Part shown: in pieces, positions 1,651-18,637 of the stretch
Layout: the number at the start of each line of letters is the position of its first letter
Position numbering within the stretch: position 1 is the stretch's first letter
Source: an uncultured Alphaproteobacteria bacterium
GTDB lineage: Bacteria; Pseudomonadota; Alphaproteobacteria; RF32; CAG-239
Reading direction: 5' to 3'
NCBI GenBank assembly: GCA_944390915.1
Contig: CALXRS010000013.1
Location: 1 to 47,064 of the forward strand
Length of the DNA stretch: 47,064 nt
Made by a program: the position numbers and the translations under genes
The notes under the pieces: generated by a model
Databases searched by the model: none
Told to the model about the DNA's origin: nothing
The model's input: only the letters and a program-made list of their open reading frames with translations

Positions 1651-2523
1651 ATGCAGGCAACAAAAAGGAAGCCGTCTTTAGCCGTGCACTTGCATTTGTA
1701 TTATCAGGGTATGTGGGATAACATAAAAAATTATCTCAAAAATATGGGAAACTACAAATATCGGCTTTATGTTACCATGGCGGAAGAAAATCCTTCGTTG
1801 ACAGACGAAATAAAGGCTTTTCATCCGGAAACGGAGTTTTTTGTCACCTCCAACCGCGGCTATGATGTCGGCCCTTTCGTAGATATGCTCAAGCGTGCCG
1901 ATTTGTGCGGATATGATCTTATCTTAAAAATCCATACCAAAAATTGCCGCACAGGCGTCGACACGCTCATCAACAATCGTTTTATTGATCGTTTATCCTG
2001 GTTTAGGCTACTGATGGGCGGTGTTCTCGGTTCTCCGGAATTGTTTGAAAAAAACATAAAACGGTTTGCCGAAGATAAAACTTTGGGAATGGTCGGTTCA
2101 AGATATCTGATAACCTCTGCCGCCACCACCGAAGAAGAATATGCCGAAATCCGCCGGATTATGGCGCGTCTCGGCTATGATTGTCCTCAAAAAATAACTT
2201 TTGTTGCCGGCACCATGTTCATGGTGCGCGGTTCTCTGCTGCGGGCAATCAGGGATAATTTTTCGCTTGCCGACTTTGAGCAGACCGACGGCGCAATCCA
2301 TGCGGGTACGCTGGCTCATTTGCTGGAACGTCTGTTTGGTTGCGTGATAGAGGCGCAGGGCTATAAAATTGCGTGTTCGGATAAGAAAAACTGGCGTTTT
2401 TTGTGTTATAACAAAACCCGCGCGCTGAAACGCTTTTTCTATCATAAAAAAGTTACCTCCGGCGGCAAGCTTCTCATTAAGATATGCAAAGTACCTGTTT
2501 TTTCCCGCAAACTCGGCGATTGA
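1651..2523 (+). CDS. RgpF-like (rhamnan synthesis F family) glycan protein
   Basis: 290 residues. The pattern is that of the rhamnan synthesis F family: an N-terminal VHLHLYY strand, NRGYDVGPFVDMLK near residue 68, and DLILKIHTKN near residue 89, then a conserved core with GMVGSRYLI and FVAGTMFMVRGSLL. Family members are linked to polymer side-chain or backbone assembly in rhamnose-rich and other surface glycans. There is no signal peptide or membrane span, so it is probably cytoplasmic or peripheral. It is first in an operon with the gene at 2535 (11 bp apart) and lies behind the promoter and operator at 1555-1586. Substrate is unknown. Confidence 0.75.
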   Translation: MQATKRKPSLAVHLHLYYQGMWDNIKNYLKNMGNYKYRLYVTMAEENPSLTDEIKAFHPETEFFVTSNRGYDVGPFVDMLKRADLCGYDLILKIHTKNCRTGVDTLINNRFIDRLSWFRLLMGGVLGSPELFEKNIKRFAEDKTLGMVGSRYLITSAATTEEEYAEIRRIMARLGYDCPQKITFVAGTMFMVRGSLLRAIRDNFSLADFEQTDGAIHAGTLAHLLERLFGCVIEAQGYKIACSDKKNWRFLCYNKTRALKRFFYHKKVTSGGKLLIKICKVPVFSRKLGD

Positions 2524-2534
2524 AAGGCTGTAAA

Positions 2535-5147
2535 ATGAAGTTGTTTTCCTTTTTTTCCAGACAATTATCCAAAAAAAGAAATTCCGACCGCGCTCCGAAC
2601 CACTGGAAAACCATAAAACATTCCGCTCTGTTTGATAAAAAATGGTATCTGGGGCATTATCCCGACGTAGCTGCCTCCAAGGCCGACGCCGCCGCGCATT
2701 ATCTGACGGAGGGCTATGCTTTGGGATACAATCCGTCGGCGGCTTTTGACAACGATTTTTATCTGAATCGCTATCCGGACATTTTATTTGCGAACATGAA
2801 TCCGCTGTTGCATTACGAATTGTACGGACGAAAGGAAAAAAGAGAAATATCGCGGGTAAAAAATGCGCCCGTTGATTATGCCGGATTGTCCGGCAGCGGA
2901 AAGGTGCTTCTGGTTTCTCACGAATTTTCCCTGACCGGCGCGCCGATTGCCTTGCTAAACATGGCGCAGGCTCTGCGCAAAAGCGGCATGGAACCGGTTA
3001 TGCTGTCGCCTTGCGGCGGCGGTTTGGAAGATGAGCTGCGGGAGCGTTCGCTCAAATATGTTGTCGACGAGCATTTTTTGCTGCGTTTGTATCGCCGGGA
3101 CAGGGGACTGAACAAATTTCTGGCATCTTTTCCGGTTATTTTGTTCAACACCATCGACAGTTTGAAATATGCCGCCCTCATCAATACGTCCAATCGGAAA
3201 ATATGCTGGGTGCACGAAGGCTGTTTCGGCTACGGCTGCGCAACCCGGGCTTTTGATCTGCCGCGTGCTTTTGCCAAAATGGACGAGGTTTATTCTGTCG
3301 GCGAATATTCAAAATCTTTTACCGACAAGCATGTGCCCGAAAATAAATCGAAAATTTTGCTGTATGGTCTGGATGCCGTAAACACGCCGGCTGTCGAAGC
3401 GCGGGAGAACAAACTGACGTTTGGCATATTCGGCGTGTGCTGCGAAAGAAAAGGGACGGATCTTTTTTTGGAAGCGGTCAAAAAGCTGCCGGAGAAGATA
3501 AAGAAAAATTGTCGTTTTAAGGTGGTCGGGCGCGTTGATGACAACGATTTTTGCCGTCGCCTGAAAAAGCTGGCGAAAAACGAGCCGGTAGTTTTTACCG
3601 GCGAACTGCCGCACGAAAAAACGCTGCGGGAGATGGCCTCGGTTGATGTTGTTGTTTGCCCGTCTTTGGACGATCCGATGCCGATTGTGATGACGGAAGC
3701 CATGCAGCTGCAAAAAACGCTGATTTGCTCCGTTTTAACCGGTACGGCGTCTTTTATTACAAACGGCGTCAACGGTTATCTTTATTCTCCGGAAGAGGAT
3801 AATCTTTCGGATATCATGGCCGACGTTTGGTATGACCGGGAACGGCTTTCCGCCGTCGGCCGGAAATGCCATAAAATCTATTTGCAAAATTTTACGACCG
3901 ATGTTTTTGCCGCCCGCGTTCGCGAGATATTCCGCGGTTGTTTTAGCGAAAATCAGTCATCGGTTGTTTGTCCGCCGGCAAAAGAAAAAATCCGCCGCAA
4001 ATGCCGCGTTATGGTGAGTAATATGCCGTCGACGGATATTCCCCTGTGGCAGCTGGCGGATTCCGAAACTCAAAGAAAAATCAGCCATAATACGGGCAAC
4101 ATCGTTATTGCCCACTATGGGAGCAAACGGTTGGATTACGATTTTGACTGGTCTTCTCCGTGGTCAACAGACGACGATATTGACGAATATCTGATTTTGG
4201 CGGCAAATTGTTTACGGCCTTCGAAAAACGAAATTTCGTTCGAGCGTTGGTTTTCTTTCTTAGACAAACTGCAAAAACCGCTGAATATTATAGGGCTCGG
4301 CGCGCAGGCCGTTTTGGAAGAGATGTCGCCGTCGCGCTATGCCGAGACTTTGTCTCCGGAAATGAAAAAATGGGTGTCGATGATTGCGGATAAATGTGTG
4401 TCCGTCGGCGTCAGGGGAGAATTTACGGCGGACGTGCTAAAAGAGCTCGGCATTAAAAACGTGGATGTTATCGGTTGTCCGACTTGGTTTGTCAACGGCA
4501 GAAATCAGCCGCTTGTCAATAAAAAGGAATATTCGCCGTTGTTGCGCCCCGTTTTCCACACCGCCTGGGATCCATATACGCCGTGGCATACCGGTTTTCA
4601 CAATGCTCTTTTGAATAATATGCTCCGATTGGCAGATCCGAAGTTTGTCATTCAATCGGAATTCGGCTTTTTGCCCTATCTTGCGGCTAACAGACATCTG
4701 TTGCAGTATCTGAGTCATTTTGACGGCGGCCGCTTAAACGATTCGATAACCGCAATTGCCCGCCATTTCGGCATCAGTGAGGAAGAAGTCTGTCATAACA
4801 AAAAAATAAACAATATGTTTGAAGTGTTTACCGATATTGACAAGTGGGAAGATTTTATAAAAACCAGAGATTTTTCATGCGGTTTTCGCATTCACGGAAC
4901 AATCGTTTCCTTAAAAAACGGCATTCCGGCCATTTGTCTGGTCTCAGATTCCAGAACTTACGAATTGTGCGATTTCCTAAAGATTCCGTTTGTGCCGGTC
5001 AATAGAATGCATCCGGAAACCATGAGCCTGCGAACCGTTTATGAGCGTGCCGATTTTTCGGAACTGAATAAACGATATCCGCAGCTTCTGGAAAATTACG
5101 TATCTTTTCTGAATAAAAACGGGATTGCGCACAAATTTGGAAAATAG
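2535..5147 (+). CDS. Three-module glycan enzyme: GT4 plus pyruvyltransferase
   Basis: 870 residues from ATG 2535. The frame is open from 2484, but 2535 clears the upstream stop and has AAAGG before it. Residues ~31-100 hold two copies of the FDxxWYLxxYPDV / HYLxxGxxxG repeat found at the ends of large glycosyltransferases. Residues ~122-470 are a GT4 domain: KVLLVSHEFSLTGAP, then FGVCCERKGTDLFLEA, and the donor-site stretch SLDDPMPIVMTEAM. Residues ~510-850 resemble polysaccharide pyruvyltransferase: NTGNIVIAHYG, GVRGEFTADVLKELG, and RIHGTIVSLKNGIPAI near the end. It would add a sugar and a pyruvyl (or related) group to the same surface glycan. No signal peptide is seen. Module calls are confident; acceptor and linkage cannot be told. 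Confidence 0.8.
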   Translation: MKLFSFFSRQLSKKRNSDRAPNHWKTIKHSALFDKKWYLGHYPDVAASKADAAAHYLTEGYALGYNPSAAFDNDFYLNRYPDILFANMNPLLHYELYGRKEKREISRVKNAPVDYAGLSGSGKVLLVSHEFSLTGAPIALLNMAQALRKSGMEPVMLSPCGGGLEDELRERSLKYVVDEHFLLRLYRRDRGLNKFLASFPVILFNTIDSLKYAALINTSNRKICWVHEGCFGYGCATRAFDLPRAFAKMDEVYSVGEYSKSFTDKHVPENKSKILLYGLDAVNTPAVEARENKLTFGIFGVCCERKGTDLFLEAVKKLPEKIKKNCRFKVVGRVDDNDFCRRLKKLAKNEPVVFTGELPHEKTLREMASVDVVVCPSLDDPMPIVMTEAMQLQKTLICSVLTGTASFITNGVNGYLYSPEEDNLSDIMADVWYDRERLSAVGRKCHKIYLQNFTTDVFAARVREIFRGCFSENQSSVVCPPAKEKIRRKCRVMVSNMPSTDIPLWQLADSETQRKISHNTGNIVIAHYGSKRLDYDFDWSSPWSTDDDIDEYLILAANCLRPSKNEISFERWFSFLDKLQKPLNIIGLGAQAVLEEMSPSRYAETLSPEMKKWVSMIADKCVSVGVRGEFTADVLKELGIKNVDVIGCPTWFVNGRNQPLVNKKEYSPLLRPVFHTAWDPYTPWHTGFHNALLNNMLRLADPKFVIQSEFGFLPYLAANRHLLQYLSHFDGGRLNDSITAIARHFGISEEEVCHNKKINNMFEVFTDIDKWEDFIKTRDFSCGFRIHGTIVSLKNGIPAICLVSDSRTYELCDFLKIPFVPVNRMHPETMSLRTVYERADFSELNKRYPQLLENYVSFLNKNGIAHKFGK

Positions 5148-5230
5148 CAGGCCGTTTTTTCGGCGGTCGTGGTTGTGCCGATTTTGTTCTGAGCAGATGT
5201 TTTTTAGCGCAATATTTGCAAATTGTCGTT

Positions 5231-5317
5231 CTTTTCCACAGTGGCAAAATAGCCCTTGCCAAGAGAATTTTTTTTGCTTAGTATCCACTTGTACCTGAGA
5301 AGGTGCGGGAGCCGTCG
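5231..5317. repeat. Dispersed 87-bp repeat, copy 1
   Basis: It matches 18550-18637 in the same orientation with only a few changes, from CTTTTCCACAG through GCCCTTGCCAAGAG and GAAGGTGCGGGAGCCGTCG. It starts about 80 bp after the gene ending at 5147. Neither copy has a convincing conserved reading frame, because a 1-nt length difference shifts it. It is probably a small interspersed element or RNA-level motif. Confidence 0.85.
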
Positions 5318-5324
5318 AAAGCTC

Positions 5325-5353
5325 TTGATTTTGTATGCGCGGTGCATGATATA
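5325..5353 (+). promoter_or_regulatory. Possible promoter for the Stealth-GT2 leader
   Basis: TTGATT (5325-5330), 17 bp, then GATATA (5348-5353). The match is fair only. It would start a transcript just before the palindrome at 5369 and the folded leader at 5402, giving the downstream gene its own leader. Confidence 0.3.
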
Positions 5354-5368
5354 GCATCGTTAAATTTC

Positions 5369-5397
5369 GTGCATAATATATTATGCACCGGTTTTTT
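5369..5397 (+). terminator. Palindrome plus T-run, probable terminator
   Basis: A perfect 20-nt palindrome (GTGCATAATA/TATTATGCAC, 5369-5388) is followed by CGGTTTTTT. It could end transcripts from the 1651-5147 operon, or act as the first hairpin of the leader of the gene at 5554. Confidence 0.5.
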
Positions 5398-5401
5398 GTA
5401 T

Positions 5402-5529
5402 CCTCGGCTGTCTGACAGAGGCCGGGGAGCTTTTAACAGATGTCCAAGGCCTTTTGGCTAAAAAGTTAAAAGGATCATCTCGCATACATGATTTTCGAAC
5501 TCCCCGGCCACCTTTGCAGGTGGTTTTTT
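5402..5529 (+). ncRNA. Structured leader RNA ending in a terminator
   Basis: The paired segments are visible by eye. A perfect 10-bp outer stem joins GGCCGGGGAG (5420-5429) to CTCCCCGGCC (5500-5509). Inside it, CTTTTAAC (5430-5437) pairs with GTTAAAAG (5465-5472), enclosing a CCAA/TTGG hairpin. A second arm is ATCAT/ATGAT (about 5474-5492). This is a closed three-way junction. A small CTGTC/GACAG hairpin precedes it. The intrinsic terminator at 5508-5529 follows and shares two bases with the 3' outer strand, and the coding start is 25 nt further on. The arrangement fits a riboswitch or attenuator, or a stand-alone small RNA. I do not recognise it as a known class. Confidence 0.45.
5508..5529 (+). 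terminator. Intrinsic terminator ahead of the Stealth-GT2 gene
   Basis: CCACCT, a TTGC loop, AGGTGG, then six T. It sits before the coding start at 5554, not after a gene, so it should act as an attenuator or as the 3' end of a small RNA. Confidence 0.75.
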
Positions 5530-5553
5530 GCTTTTTAGACTATGGGGAAAAAG

Positions 5554-7518
5554 ATGAAAATAGACTTGGTGTATCTCTGGTGTGACGGCAGTGATCCGAA
5601 ATGGCTGAAAAAGAAAGAATACTGGCAGCAAAAATATGGTCTGGTAAATGCGGAAGCGGCATACAGCTGTCGTTTCGTCCAGCATGACGAATTAAAATTT
5701 TCCCTGCGCTCGGTCGAAATGTATATGCCCTGGATTAATCATATTTTCATTGTCAGTGACGAACAGGTTCCCGAATGGCTGGATACGGACAATCCCAAAA
5801 TAAGCATTGTTGATCACCGGGACATAATTCCCGAAGATGCCTTGCCGACGTTTAATTCAAATGCCATCGAGGCCTGTTTGTGCAATATTCCCGGGTTGTC
5901 GGAACATTTTTTATATGCCAACGATGATATGATGGTTGCCCGCCCGCTCACTCCGGATTATTTTTTTGCGCCGGACGGCAGACCATATGTCTTTTTAAGA
6001 AACAGCAATCTTTCCGCTCCCTGCGTTTATACCGATCAGGTGCTTTTGGCGCAAAATTTAATCAAAGAAAAATACGGGACATATTATCCGTTTTCGCCGC
6101 ATCACAATATTGACGCCTACCGTTTGTCGGATGTCCGTCGCTGCCTGCAGGCTTTTCCCGAATTGACAACAAAAACCGTCCGTCAGCGTTTTCGTGAAAG
6201 AGAGACCCTGCAACGTTCACTTTGGGGATATTATGCTTTGGCGACCGGCAACGGCATTTTGGTACACAACAGGAATATTGATCCGCGGCTTTCTCTTATC
6301 AGAAAAATAAATTTGACAATGAGCAATCGCCGGCAAAAAATTTCCGAAACCGTTATGCGTCCCGCCATGCTGTCTTCAACTCTTTGCCGGACAAATCCGG
6401 GGTTGTTCTGCATCAATGACAACGAGTATCTGTTTTCTGAAGAACGTTATCAGATAAAATGGGAACTGGCACACATTCTTCCGTTCCCTTCCGTTTTTGA
6501 AAAACAGATACGGAAAAAATGGAAATATAAAGTCAGCGTGATTGTGCCGGTCTACAATGCCGGGCGATATTTGAAACGTTGTCTGGATTCGCTGCTTGCT
6601 CAATCTCTGGCGGATATGGAGATTGTTTGTGTCAATGACGGTTCGGATGACAACAGTTCGGAAATATTAAACAATTATGCCGCGACGGATGCCCGCGTAA
6701 AAGTCCTTTCTTTCGAAAAAATCGGGCCGGGCGGTTGTCGCAATGCCGGCATCGACGCGGCCGAGGGAAAATATATAGCGTTTGTTGACGCGGATGATTA
6801 TGTGGAAAGAGAAACTTTTTTGACGGCGTATGAAAAAATCGAAGAAAGCGCTGCGGAAATATTGTCGTTTAACGCTCTGGAAATTCAAACCGACGGCATC
6901 AAAAAAAATATATTTTTTTCCGCCGACAGAGAAAAAGAAGTTTCCGGCGGGGAGCTTTTGCCCTCGTTTTTCAAGAACCGCCTTTGCTGCTGGCATTTGC
7001 TGATAAACCACGATTTTCTGCTTCATAACCATTTTTATTTTTCGGCAAACCGCTATTACGGAGAAGAAATGATGTTTATGCTGCCGCTGTTTGCCGCGGC
7101 GCAAAAAGTAAAACTGATACCGAATTCGTTTTACCGCTATTGCCGCAACCAGACATCGCTGATTGCAACGGCTGCAGGCGGACGTCTCCAATTGCTGAAA
7201 ACAATTCCGGAAATTATGAGATTCCTGCGCCAGAAGGAAAGTTTTGCCTGCATGGAAAAAGAATTTCGCCGATGGTGCGTAAAGTTTTCGTGCTTTGCCT
7301 ATAACGATATGAGCGACAACCGAAAAAATCAGCAGATATTATGCAAAGGCCTGAAAAAGGTTTTGGATAAGAAAACATATCGTAAATTCAGAAAATCGGC
7401 CGCAACAGGCTGGAAAATGGCGTTGTTTGGAATTTCCTTTGCCAGAGTCGTTTATTTTAACAACACGTATACACTTAAATTGTTCGGCATCCCTCTGTTT
7501 GTGTATAAAAAAGGATAA
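5554..7518 (+). CDS. Stealth-family phosphotransferase fused to GT2
   Basis: 654 residues. The start at 5554 is preferred over ATG 5542 because GGGGA lies 5 nt upstream and 5542 has no SD. Residues 1-~250 are Stealth conserved regions of the capsular sugar-phosphate transferase type: IDLVYLWCDGSDPKW (region 1), then HDELKFSLRSVEMYMPW, LPTFNSNAIEA and FLYANDDMMVARP (region 2), with later blocks in order. Residues ~325-550 are a GT2 domain: VSVIVPVYNAGRYLKRCLDS, VCVNDGSDD, then the DADDY metal-binding motif. Stealth proteins move hexose-1-phosphates into capsule- or teichoic-like polymers, so the fusion could add alternating sugar and sugar-phosphate units. It is the last gene of the glycan island and is preceded by the folded leader. 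Confidence 0.85.
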   Translation: MKIDLVYLWCDGSDPKWLKKKEYWQQKYGLVNAEAAYSCRFVQHDELKFSLRSVEMYMPWINHIFIVSDEQVPEWLDTDNPKISIVDHRDIIPEDALPTFNSNAIEACLCNIPGLSEHFLYANDDMMVARPLTPDYFFAPDGRPYVFLRNSNLSAPCVYTDQVLLAQNLIKEKYGTYYPFSPHHNIDAYRLSDVRRCLQAFPELTTKTVRQRFRERETLQRSLWGYYALATGNGILVHNRNIDPRLSLIRKINLTMSNRRQKISETVMRPAMLSSTLCRTNPGLFCINDNEYLFSEERYQIKWELAHILPFPSVFEKQIRKKWKYKVSVIVPVYNAGRYLKRCLDSLLAQSLADMEIVCVNDGSDDNSSEILNNYAATDARVKVLSFEKIGPGGCRNAGIDAAEGKYIAFVDADDYVERETFLTAYEKIEESAAEILSFNALEIQTDGIKKNIFFSADREKEVSGGELLPSFFKNRLCCWHLLINHDFLLHNHFYFSANRYYGEEMMFMLPLFAAAQKVKLIPNSFYRYCRNQTSLIATAAGGRLQLLKTIPEIMRFLRQKESFACMEKEFRRWCVKFSCFAYNDMSDNRKNQQILCKGLKKVLDKKTYRKFRKSAATGWKMALFGISFARVVYFNNTYTLKLFGIPLFVYKKG

Positions 7519-18549: not shown

Positions 18550-18637
18550 CTTTTCCACAGCGGCAAAATAGCCCTTGCCAAGAGAATTTTTTTTGCACAA
18601 GTATCCACTTGTGCCTGAGAAGGTGCGGGAGCCGTCG
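18550..18637. repeat. Dispersed 87-bp repeat, copy 2
   Basis: Same orientation as 5231-5317, almost identical. In this copy GCACAAGT, ATCC, ACTTGTGC forms a perfect 8-bp hairpin that copy 1 has lost. Its 3' edge abuts the broken GT8 frame, so the junction is likely a recombination or insertion point. Confidence 0.85.

Follow-up and report, generated by a model that had tools for sequence, protein, structure and literature searches.

The surface-polysaccharide locus and its leader

The window, by which we mean the whole 47,064-nt stretch of an uncultured Alphaproteobacteria contig analysed here, holds at 5554–7518 (+ strand) a gene for a 654-aa protein with domain matches to Stealth_CR1/CR2 and glycosyltransferase family 2 (GT2). 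The gene upstream of the leader described below (2484–5147) specifies a fusion of a group 1 glycosyltransferase with a polysaccharide pyruvyl transferase domain, and together with an RgpF-like ORF (1651–2523) and the Stealth gene it makes up a surface-polysaccharide locus. Ahead of the Stealth gene, the initial annotation had described a perfect 10-bp outer stem (5420–5429 with 5500–5509), two inner arms, a terminator sharing the last bases of that stem and a gene start at 5554; reading the sequence directly confirmed each of these positions, and a Shine–Dalgarno sequence, GGGGA, lies at 5544–5548, with no copy there of the a1 and b1 sites introduced below. The annotated extent of the leader was half right: the three-way junction stands, but it is only the 3′ half of a unit running from approximately 5291 to 5529, and some 110 nt of conserved sequence 5′ of the part first reported had been missed, as had two long-range pairings (PK1 and PK2), the stem P0 and a first terminator-like structure (T1).

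All parts of the unit lie on the + strand. A putative promoter (TTGCCA-17-TAGTAT, 5256–5284) matches the consensus at 9 of 12 positions in a scan that was as a whole no better than chance, and from it transcription would be expected to start at about 5291; conservation begins at this promoter-like region, both in orthologues and at unrelated loci. The transcript would open with hairpin H1 (GUACCU-GAGA-AGGUGC, 5291–5306), which is paired in all aligned copies from genome G028, followed by hairpin H2 (5309–5324), the loop of which (UCGAAA, 5315–5320) is an a1-like site, and by a b1-like site (UGUAUGCG, 5332–5339). Next comes T1 (5340–5397), a terminator-like hairpin CGGUGCAU...AUGCACCG (5340–5390) with a run of six U residues (5392–5397), or alternatively a small hairpin, H3 (5340–5359); their folding energies are −22.0 and −6.8 kcal/mol respectively. 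P0 (5401–5428) pairs 5401–5409 with 5420–5428 and is mutually exclusive with P1, the outer stem of the junction.

The junction itself (5420–5509) is recognized from alignment, a covariance model and a weak full-length match to Rfam RF02221 as an antisense RNA core resembling those of C4 and sRNA-Xcc1. Its stem P1 pairs GGCCGGGGAG (5420–5429) with CTCCCCGGCC (5500–5509) in 10 perfect pairs, and its two arms, seen in both sequence and alignment, are P2 (5430–5437 with 5465–5472), closed by P2b (5448–5451 with 5456–5459), and P3 (5474–5478 with 5488–5492). The P3 loop carries a b′-like antisense segment (CGCAUACA, 5481–5488) complementary to 5332–5339, and the joining region J3/1 an a′-like segment (UUUCGA, 5493–5498) complementary to 5315–5320. 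The intrinsic terminator T2 (GGCCACC-UUUGCA-GGUGGUU, 5506–5529; hairpin 5506–5525, U-tract 5524–5529) overlaps the 3′ end of P1, and its energy of −10.2 kcal/mol falls to −2.3 kcal/mol without the bases shared with that stem.

Conservation of the fold

Folded on its own, the window RNA is only mildly better than shuffled sequences (z = −1.98, 5 of 200 as good), which from the window alone left chance as a possible explanation, and proof was therefore sought in relatives. The stretch 5420–5527 matches dozens of sites in genomes of the same family, and 41 copies were read for the first comparison. In an alignment of 13 copies, 98.0% of cells in P1, P2, P2b and P3 were paired, a value that none of 500 shuffles equalled, and 15 of the 27 pairs showed changes on both sides; these compensating changes bear out the initial annotation's proposal of a folded leader. 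A covariance model built from this alignment detects the element in 83 of the 101 family genomes.

On the 5′ side of P1, H1, H2, a variable segment and H3 are common to the copies. When the full structure with both long-range pairings was imposed on 30 aligned sequences from G028, 98.9% of cells were paired (0 of 500 shuffles as good) and 284 cells had changed on both sides. P0 is significant in 104 of 123 family copies and in 70 of 76 copies from G028, where 98.3% of its cells are paired. P0, P1 and T2 overlap, and the internal-loop nucleotides AUGUNCA and UAAAG are strongly conserved.

Two long-range pairings and their turnover

Within each copy, PK1 joins the variable upstream segment to the P3 loop (5332–5339 with 5481–5488 in the window), and PK2 joins the loop of H2 to J3/1 (5315–5320 with 5493–5498). 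Both show near-perfect covariation across approximately 260 copies, with controls reaching the observed values in 0 of 500 and 0 of 1000 trials. Over 98 copies the P3 loop scored 19.7 at PK1 with its own upstream region, as against 13.5 with those of other copies, and the window's own score of 20.0 was equalled by none of the upstream regions of 97 other copies. In G028, 98.7% of PK1 cells are paired, 73 of the 76 copies have at least 8 contiguous pairs with their own strand, and 64 of the 76 have no sister copy that pairs as well. PK2 reaches 6 bp or more in 246 of the 256 copies, a result that none of 1000 permutations matched, and G–U pairs are rare in both pairings. The pairing is lost in a few copies (L103, L058, the second copy of L056 and three in G028). 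In one of these, L058 (G015:C32), the upstream strand is mismatched to its own P3 loop and resembles the strand of L115 and L050, as if the two halves of the leader derived from different loci.

The PK1 strands change far faster than their surroundings. Mean pairwise identity in G028 is 0.40 for the PK1 columns, compared with 0.64–1.00 for H1, H2, PK2, H3, P1, P2b and P3; P2 is also variable (0.50). PK1 strands may be unrelated in leaders that are otherwise 93–98% identical (L203/L107, L111/L093 and both leaders in L031), and only two pairs of close leaders (>90%) retain theirs. Comparisons within and between genomes did not separate, the pairing strands diverging quickly in both, which speaks for fast coordinated turnover and not yet for selection against crosstalk; we infer that selection for orthogonality within one genome may nonetheless contribute.

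The two pairings could form solely in cis, within one fold, and the element would then be a leader of approximately 220 nt in which PK1 and PK2 are mere pseudoknots and a ligand or protein switches between P0 and P1, that is, a new riboswitch or protein-responsive attenuator. We regard this as unlikely, although several features fit it: each pairing is intramolecular and almost without exception perfect, the conservation of the internal loop is aptamer-like, and P0 excludes P1, which in turn overlaps T2. Near-random strands between otherwise almost identical leaders, however, exceed what a structural helix needs, and three further observations against a cis-only leader are given with the downstream genes and the related RNAs below. 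With PK1, PK2 and an order of parts like that of phage P1, a riboswitch is not the preferred reading.

Position, terminators and downstream genes

An ORF with a Shine–Dalgarno sequence lies within 130 nt downstream of 100 of the 123 family copies (median 52 nt), compared with 6 on the opposite side; the figures are 72 and 0 for the 76 copies in G028, and 54 and 10 for 66 wider relatives. The element is by this comparison of sequences a leader, placed on the same strand 30–60 nt 5′ of a start codon. An intrinsic terminator follows P1 in 108 of the 123 family copies (7.7 expected) and 70 of the 76 in G028, and in only 16 of the 66 wider relatives (2.4 expected). T1-like sites were found in 58 of the 123 family copies (8.9 expected) and in 20 of 28 copies of the sRNA-Xcc1 type (1.4 expected), and are missing from about half of the family copies and from most in G028. 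Given the terminator between RNA and start codon and the recurrence of the element before surface-glycan and surface-protein genes, attenuation is likely. To this extent the initial annotation, which saw the layout of a riboswitch or attenuator, holds; the riboswitch half is not supported, in view of the antisense segments, the locus-private strand of the P3 loop and the lack of any match to a riboswitch class in Rfam.

The genes that follow the element are pilin-like, glycosyltransferase, outer-membrane, restriction and regulator genes. Among 54 downstream proteins in the family, 10 are GT2 glycosyltransferases and 6 are HTH regulators; others are beta-barrel and opacity-type porins, SNase nucleases, Stealth proteins and a DNA methylase, and autotransporter-like proteins with signal peptides were also seen on direct reading. 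In G028, 53 of 63 are pilin-like (Bundlin/PilS), and most leaders there precede an expanded pilin-like family (GRSMIEMLGVLAIIGVLSVGGIAGYSKAM...; loci L147–L186 and L207–L226 in G028 and G226). A spectrum of pilins, glycosyltransferases, XRE regulators, restriction–modification genes and TraM offers no common pathway to which a cis-only leader might respond.

Relation to sRNA-Xcc1, C4 and P4 CI

The initial annotation could match the element to no known class. At gathering scores, an Rfam search of the whole window indeed returned two tRNAs only, and no known riboswitch class in Rfam scores on the element. A permissive search of 5148–5600, however, gave a single notable match, full length, to sRNA-Xcc1 (RF02221; 24.2 bits, E = 0.062), below the gathering score of 53, so that the element can be related to sRNA-Xcc1 and C4 even though it stays under the Rfam cut-offs. 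C4 (RF01695) gave no match up to E = 10 in 5148–5600 and none in the same genome at E = 0.1. Our family model (R1) scores the C4 of phage P1 at 13 bits; homology with C4 therefore rests on anatomy and on two loci of relatives (L298 and L299) that weakly match both the C4 and the sRNA-Xcc1 models, and not on a strong score. No published link between sRNA-Xcc1 and C4 was found in the openly accessible literature.

In anatomy the element resembles C4 of phages P1 and P7 (RF01695; a1/b1 sites, RF03163). The phage P1 record annotates a1, b1, C4 RNA, a2 and b2, in that order, ahead of icd/ant; its sequence has a terminator-like hairpin between b1 and C4, and computed complementarity places a′ in J3/1 and b′ in the P3 loop. 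The window element has the same order in one transcript, with a three-stem RNA (P1, P2 and P3) derived from a longer leader, a P1 beginning with GG, and J3/1 and P3-loop segments complementary to two sites upstream in the same transcript. Its PK1 strands, near-private to each locus, correspond to the C4 specificity segment, which differs between immunity groups. In C4, RNase P generates the mature 5′ end at the first G of P1 (PMC5320573), and the GG at 5420 is compatible with such processing; by analogy with it and with the size of sRNA-Xcc1, the 5′ end of the mature RNA is predicted at G5420. Unlike C4, the window RNA falls below the cut-offs of both Rfam models, is without a2/b2 and has T2 between RNA and gene, and its target is a surface-glycan gene instead of an antirepressor, with tens of copies per genome in relatives. 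The a2/b2 sites at the ribosome-binding site are the proven target of C4. In the window family the P3 loop pairs with its own downstream region no better than with those of others (10.40 versus 10.39; 481 of 1000 permutations as good), and the same comparison in G028 was no better than chance (711 of 1000).

sRNA-Xcc1 is the nearest covariance model and has the same P1, P2 and P3, and many of its copies in other Proteobacteria share both upstream pairings; its internal loop is AUACAA/GAAUAA, where the window family has AUGUNCA/UAAAG. Loci of the sRNA-Xcc1 type carry a2/b2-like target copies flanking the Shine–Dalgarno sequence of the next gene (e.g. CCGAAAA-GGAG-CAAACAG-CC-ATG in L286), and this downstream pairing is specific to the copy (own versus other copies, 14.34 versus 10.90 for the P3 loop and 14.53 versus 12.92 for J; 0 of 1000 permutations each). 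The window family, in contrast, lacks these copies and has intrinsic terminators instead. With both cut-offs missed and a2/b2 absent, the window element cannot formally be placed in RF02221 or RF01695; its shared order and pairing positions lead us to read it as a C4-like self-directed antisense RNA. An anatomy equal to that of C4, whose segments act in trans, and the copies of both targets at ribosome-binding sites in sRNA-Xcc1-type loci likewise tell against a leader working solely in cis.

sRNA-Xcc1 is an 88-nt RNA confirmed by Northern blot (PMC2996969), a length equal to that of the junction, and is abundant with low ribosome coverage in Escherichia coli EDL933 (PMC5331693), where the published coordinates do not coincide with sRNA-Xcc1 in the genome record. 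It has been found upstream of symE in Xanthomonas integron cassettes (PMC12444791) and, on a Xylella island, as five copies at even spacing (PMC12189769). Its discrete size and abundance would suit an independent sRNA gene that has a promoter and terminator of its own and regulates other mRNAs in trans, as proposed for sRNA-Xcc1. We consider this very improbable for the window element, which sits tightly, and on the same strand, before the start codons of unrelated genes, finds its best complement in its own leader, and is followed so closely by the Shine–Dalgarno sequence after the terminator that another promoter would not fit. Least credible of all is that the element brings about processive antitermination in long surface operons by recruiting a NusG-like factor, as in RfaH/ops or the Bacillus EAR: the glycosyltransferases, autotransporters and pilins resemble such regulons, but the targets include many single short genes (XRE regulators, traM, lipoproteins), and private pairing strands leave an antitermination factor no common protein code.

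Two further systems resemble the element. In the P4 CI RNA (seqA and seqC), as described in PMC4825925, a processed leader antisense RNA pairs with sites on its own transcript and causes premature termination. It is the closest known system in the proposed outcome; one site lies on either side of CI, whereas the window sites are upstream only. The C4-like Group 1 sRNAs of Acinetobacter baumannii share many chromosomal copies, a variable specificity segment and processing at the GG of P1, but number 21 and have C4-type sequence, as against up to 85 leaders of identified surface genes here (PMC5320573).

Copies in the family, on plasmids and beyond

By the covariance model, G028 (1.6 Mb) has approximately 85 copies and G226 approximately 71; in most genomes the count is to be read as at least the number found, and the family relatives are all draft genomes, most probably MAGs. 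In wider samples the model matched 21 of 190 genomes from the class and 22 of 398 from the phylum, and the RF02221 model matched 32 of the 190 (3 above cut-off) and 55 of the 398 (39 above cut-off). Three further copies lie in the window's own genome: one upstream of an XRE-type regulator with a 10-bp PK1 of its own (L138, G000:C6:14327–14418), one nearer to sRNA-Xcc1 with a 12-bp PK1 (L087, G000:C16:33713–33801), and one at G000:C1:35321–35406. Within the window, 18550–18637 is 94% identical to 5231–5317 (promoter region, H1 and the start of H2) and is flanked by an adhE-like gene and an ORF resembling the end of a glycosyltransferase; its abrupt stop 5′ of the pairing sites and its place beside that ORF suggest that it is the remnant of a second such leader. 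Elsewhere two junctions stand in tandem about 35 nt apart (L231/L250, G623:C6), the second having no upstream pairing sites of its own.

The leader is also found on plasmids. It is followed by traM on Ti plasmids and others from Agrobacterium, Bradyrhizobium and Ancylobacter, and by HTH genes on p42d and pAMI8. Matches occur in 361 plasmid records, of which 266 are predicted to be conjugative, and the traM copies have their own pairing. On Ti-type conjugative plasmids the leader separates traM from traH or from other genes (L255, L259, L261, L262, L263 and L265), where it is unannotated in all plasmid records inspected, and in the Rhizobiales plasmid copies L254–L264 a conserved hairpin, GCGGGGGCGYACCGC, replaces the U-tract terminator after P1. 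The phage collection gave no DNA match to the pTi traM leader.

A probable self-directed antisense attenuator

Taken together, the sequence comparisons indicate that the element is probably a self-directed antisense-RNA attenuator of the phage P1 C4/P4 CI kind, here on a chromosomal surface-glycan gene; that it acts in trans, and in which direction it controls the gene, we infer from the same comparisons. As proposed, polymerase would pass a1 and b1 and either stop at T1 or go on to make the antisense RNA, after which it may stop at T2. The 3′ RNA, released at T2 and matured at G5420 by RNase P as C4 is, would pair with a1 and b1 on new leaders of its own locus and not with those of sister loci. 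With a1 and b1 occupied, T1 and T2 may be free to form, and premature termination would be favoured, which would keep expression of the gene down until the RNA is gone or titrated. Docking of a′ and b′ in cis could instead keep P1 closed and permit read-through, since, with its base held in P1, T2 keeps little of its stability. There is precedent both for premature termination through sites on an RNA's own transcript (P4 CI) and for a short leader, IsrK of Salmonella Gifsy-1, acting back in trans on a longer transcript (PMC4825925).

Implications

The comparison ties an orphan family, sRNA-Xcc1, to the C4 type of antisense immunity RNA and predicts that the real target of sRNA-Xcc1, which has presumably been filed so far only as a virulence-related trans-acting sRNA, is its own leader, and frequently also the ribosome-binding site of its own locus. 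It also places the design far beyond phages: before traM on Ti and other conjugative plasmids, before restriction and XRE regulator genes, and before tens of surface genes in small-genome Alphaproteobacteria. More speculatively, a phage-immunity mechanism may have been turned into genome-wide addressing, in which a private lock and key of 8–10 nt at each of up to about 85 leaders would allow every locus to be silenced or released only by its own RNA; expression of the pilin-like genes could then be independent, possibly heritable or one at a time, and selection against crossing would drive the turnover of the strands. If the private codes do act in trans, they would form the largest orthogonal set of RNA regulators in one cell known to us and, if so, a natural source of non-crossing attenuators.
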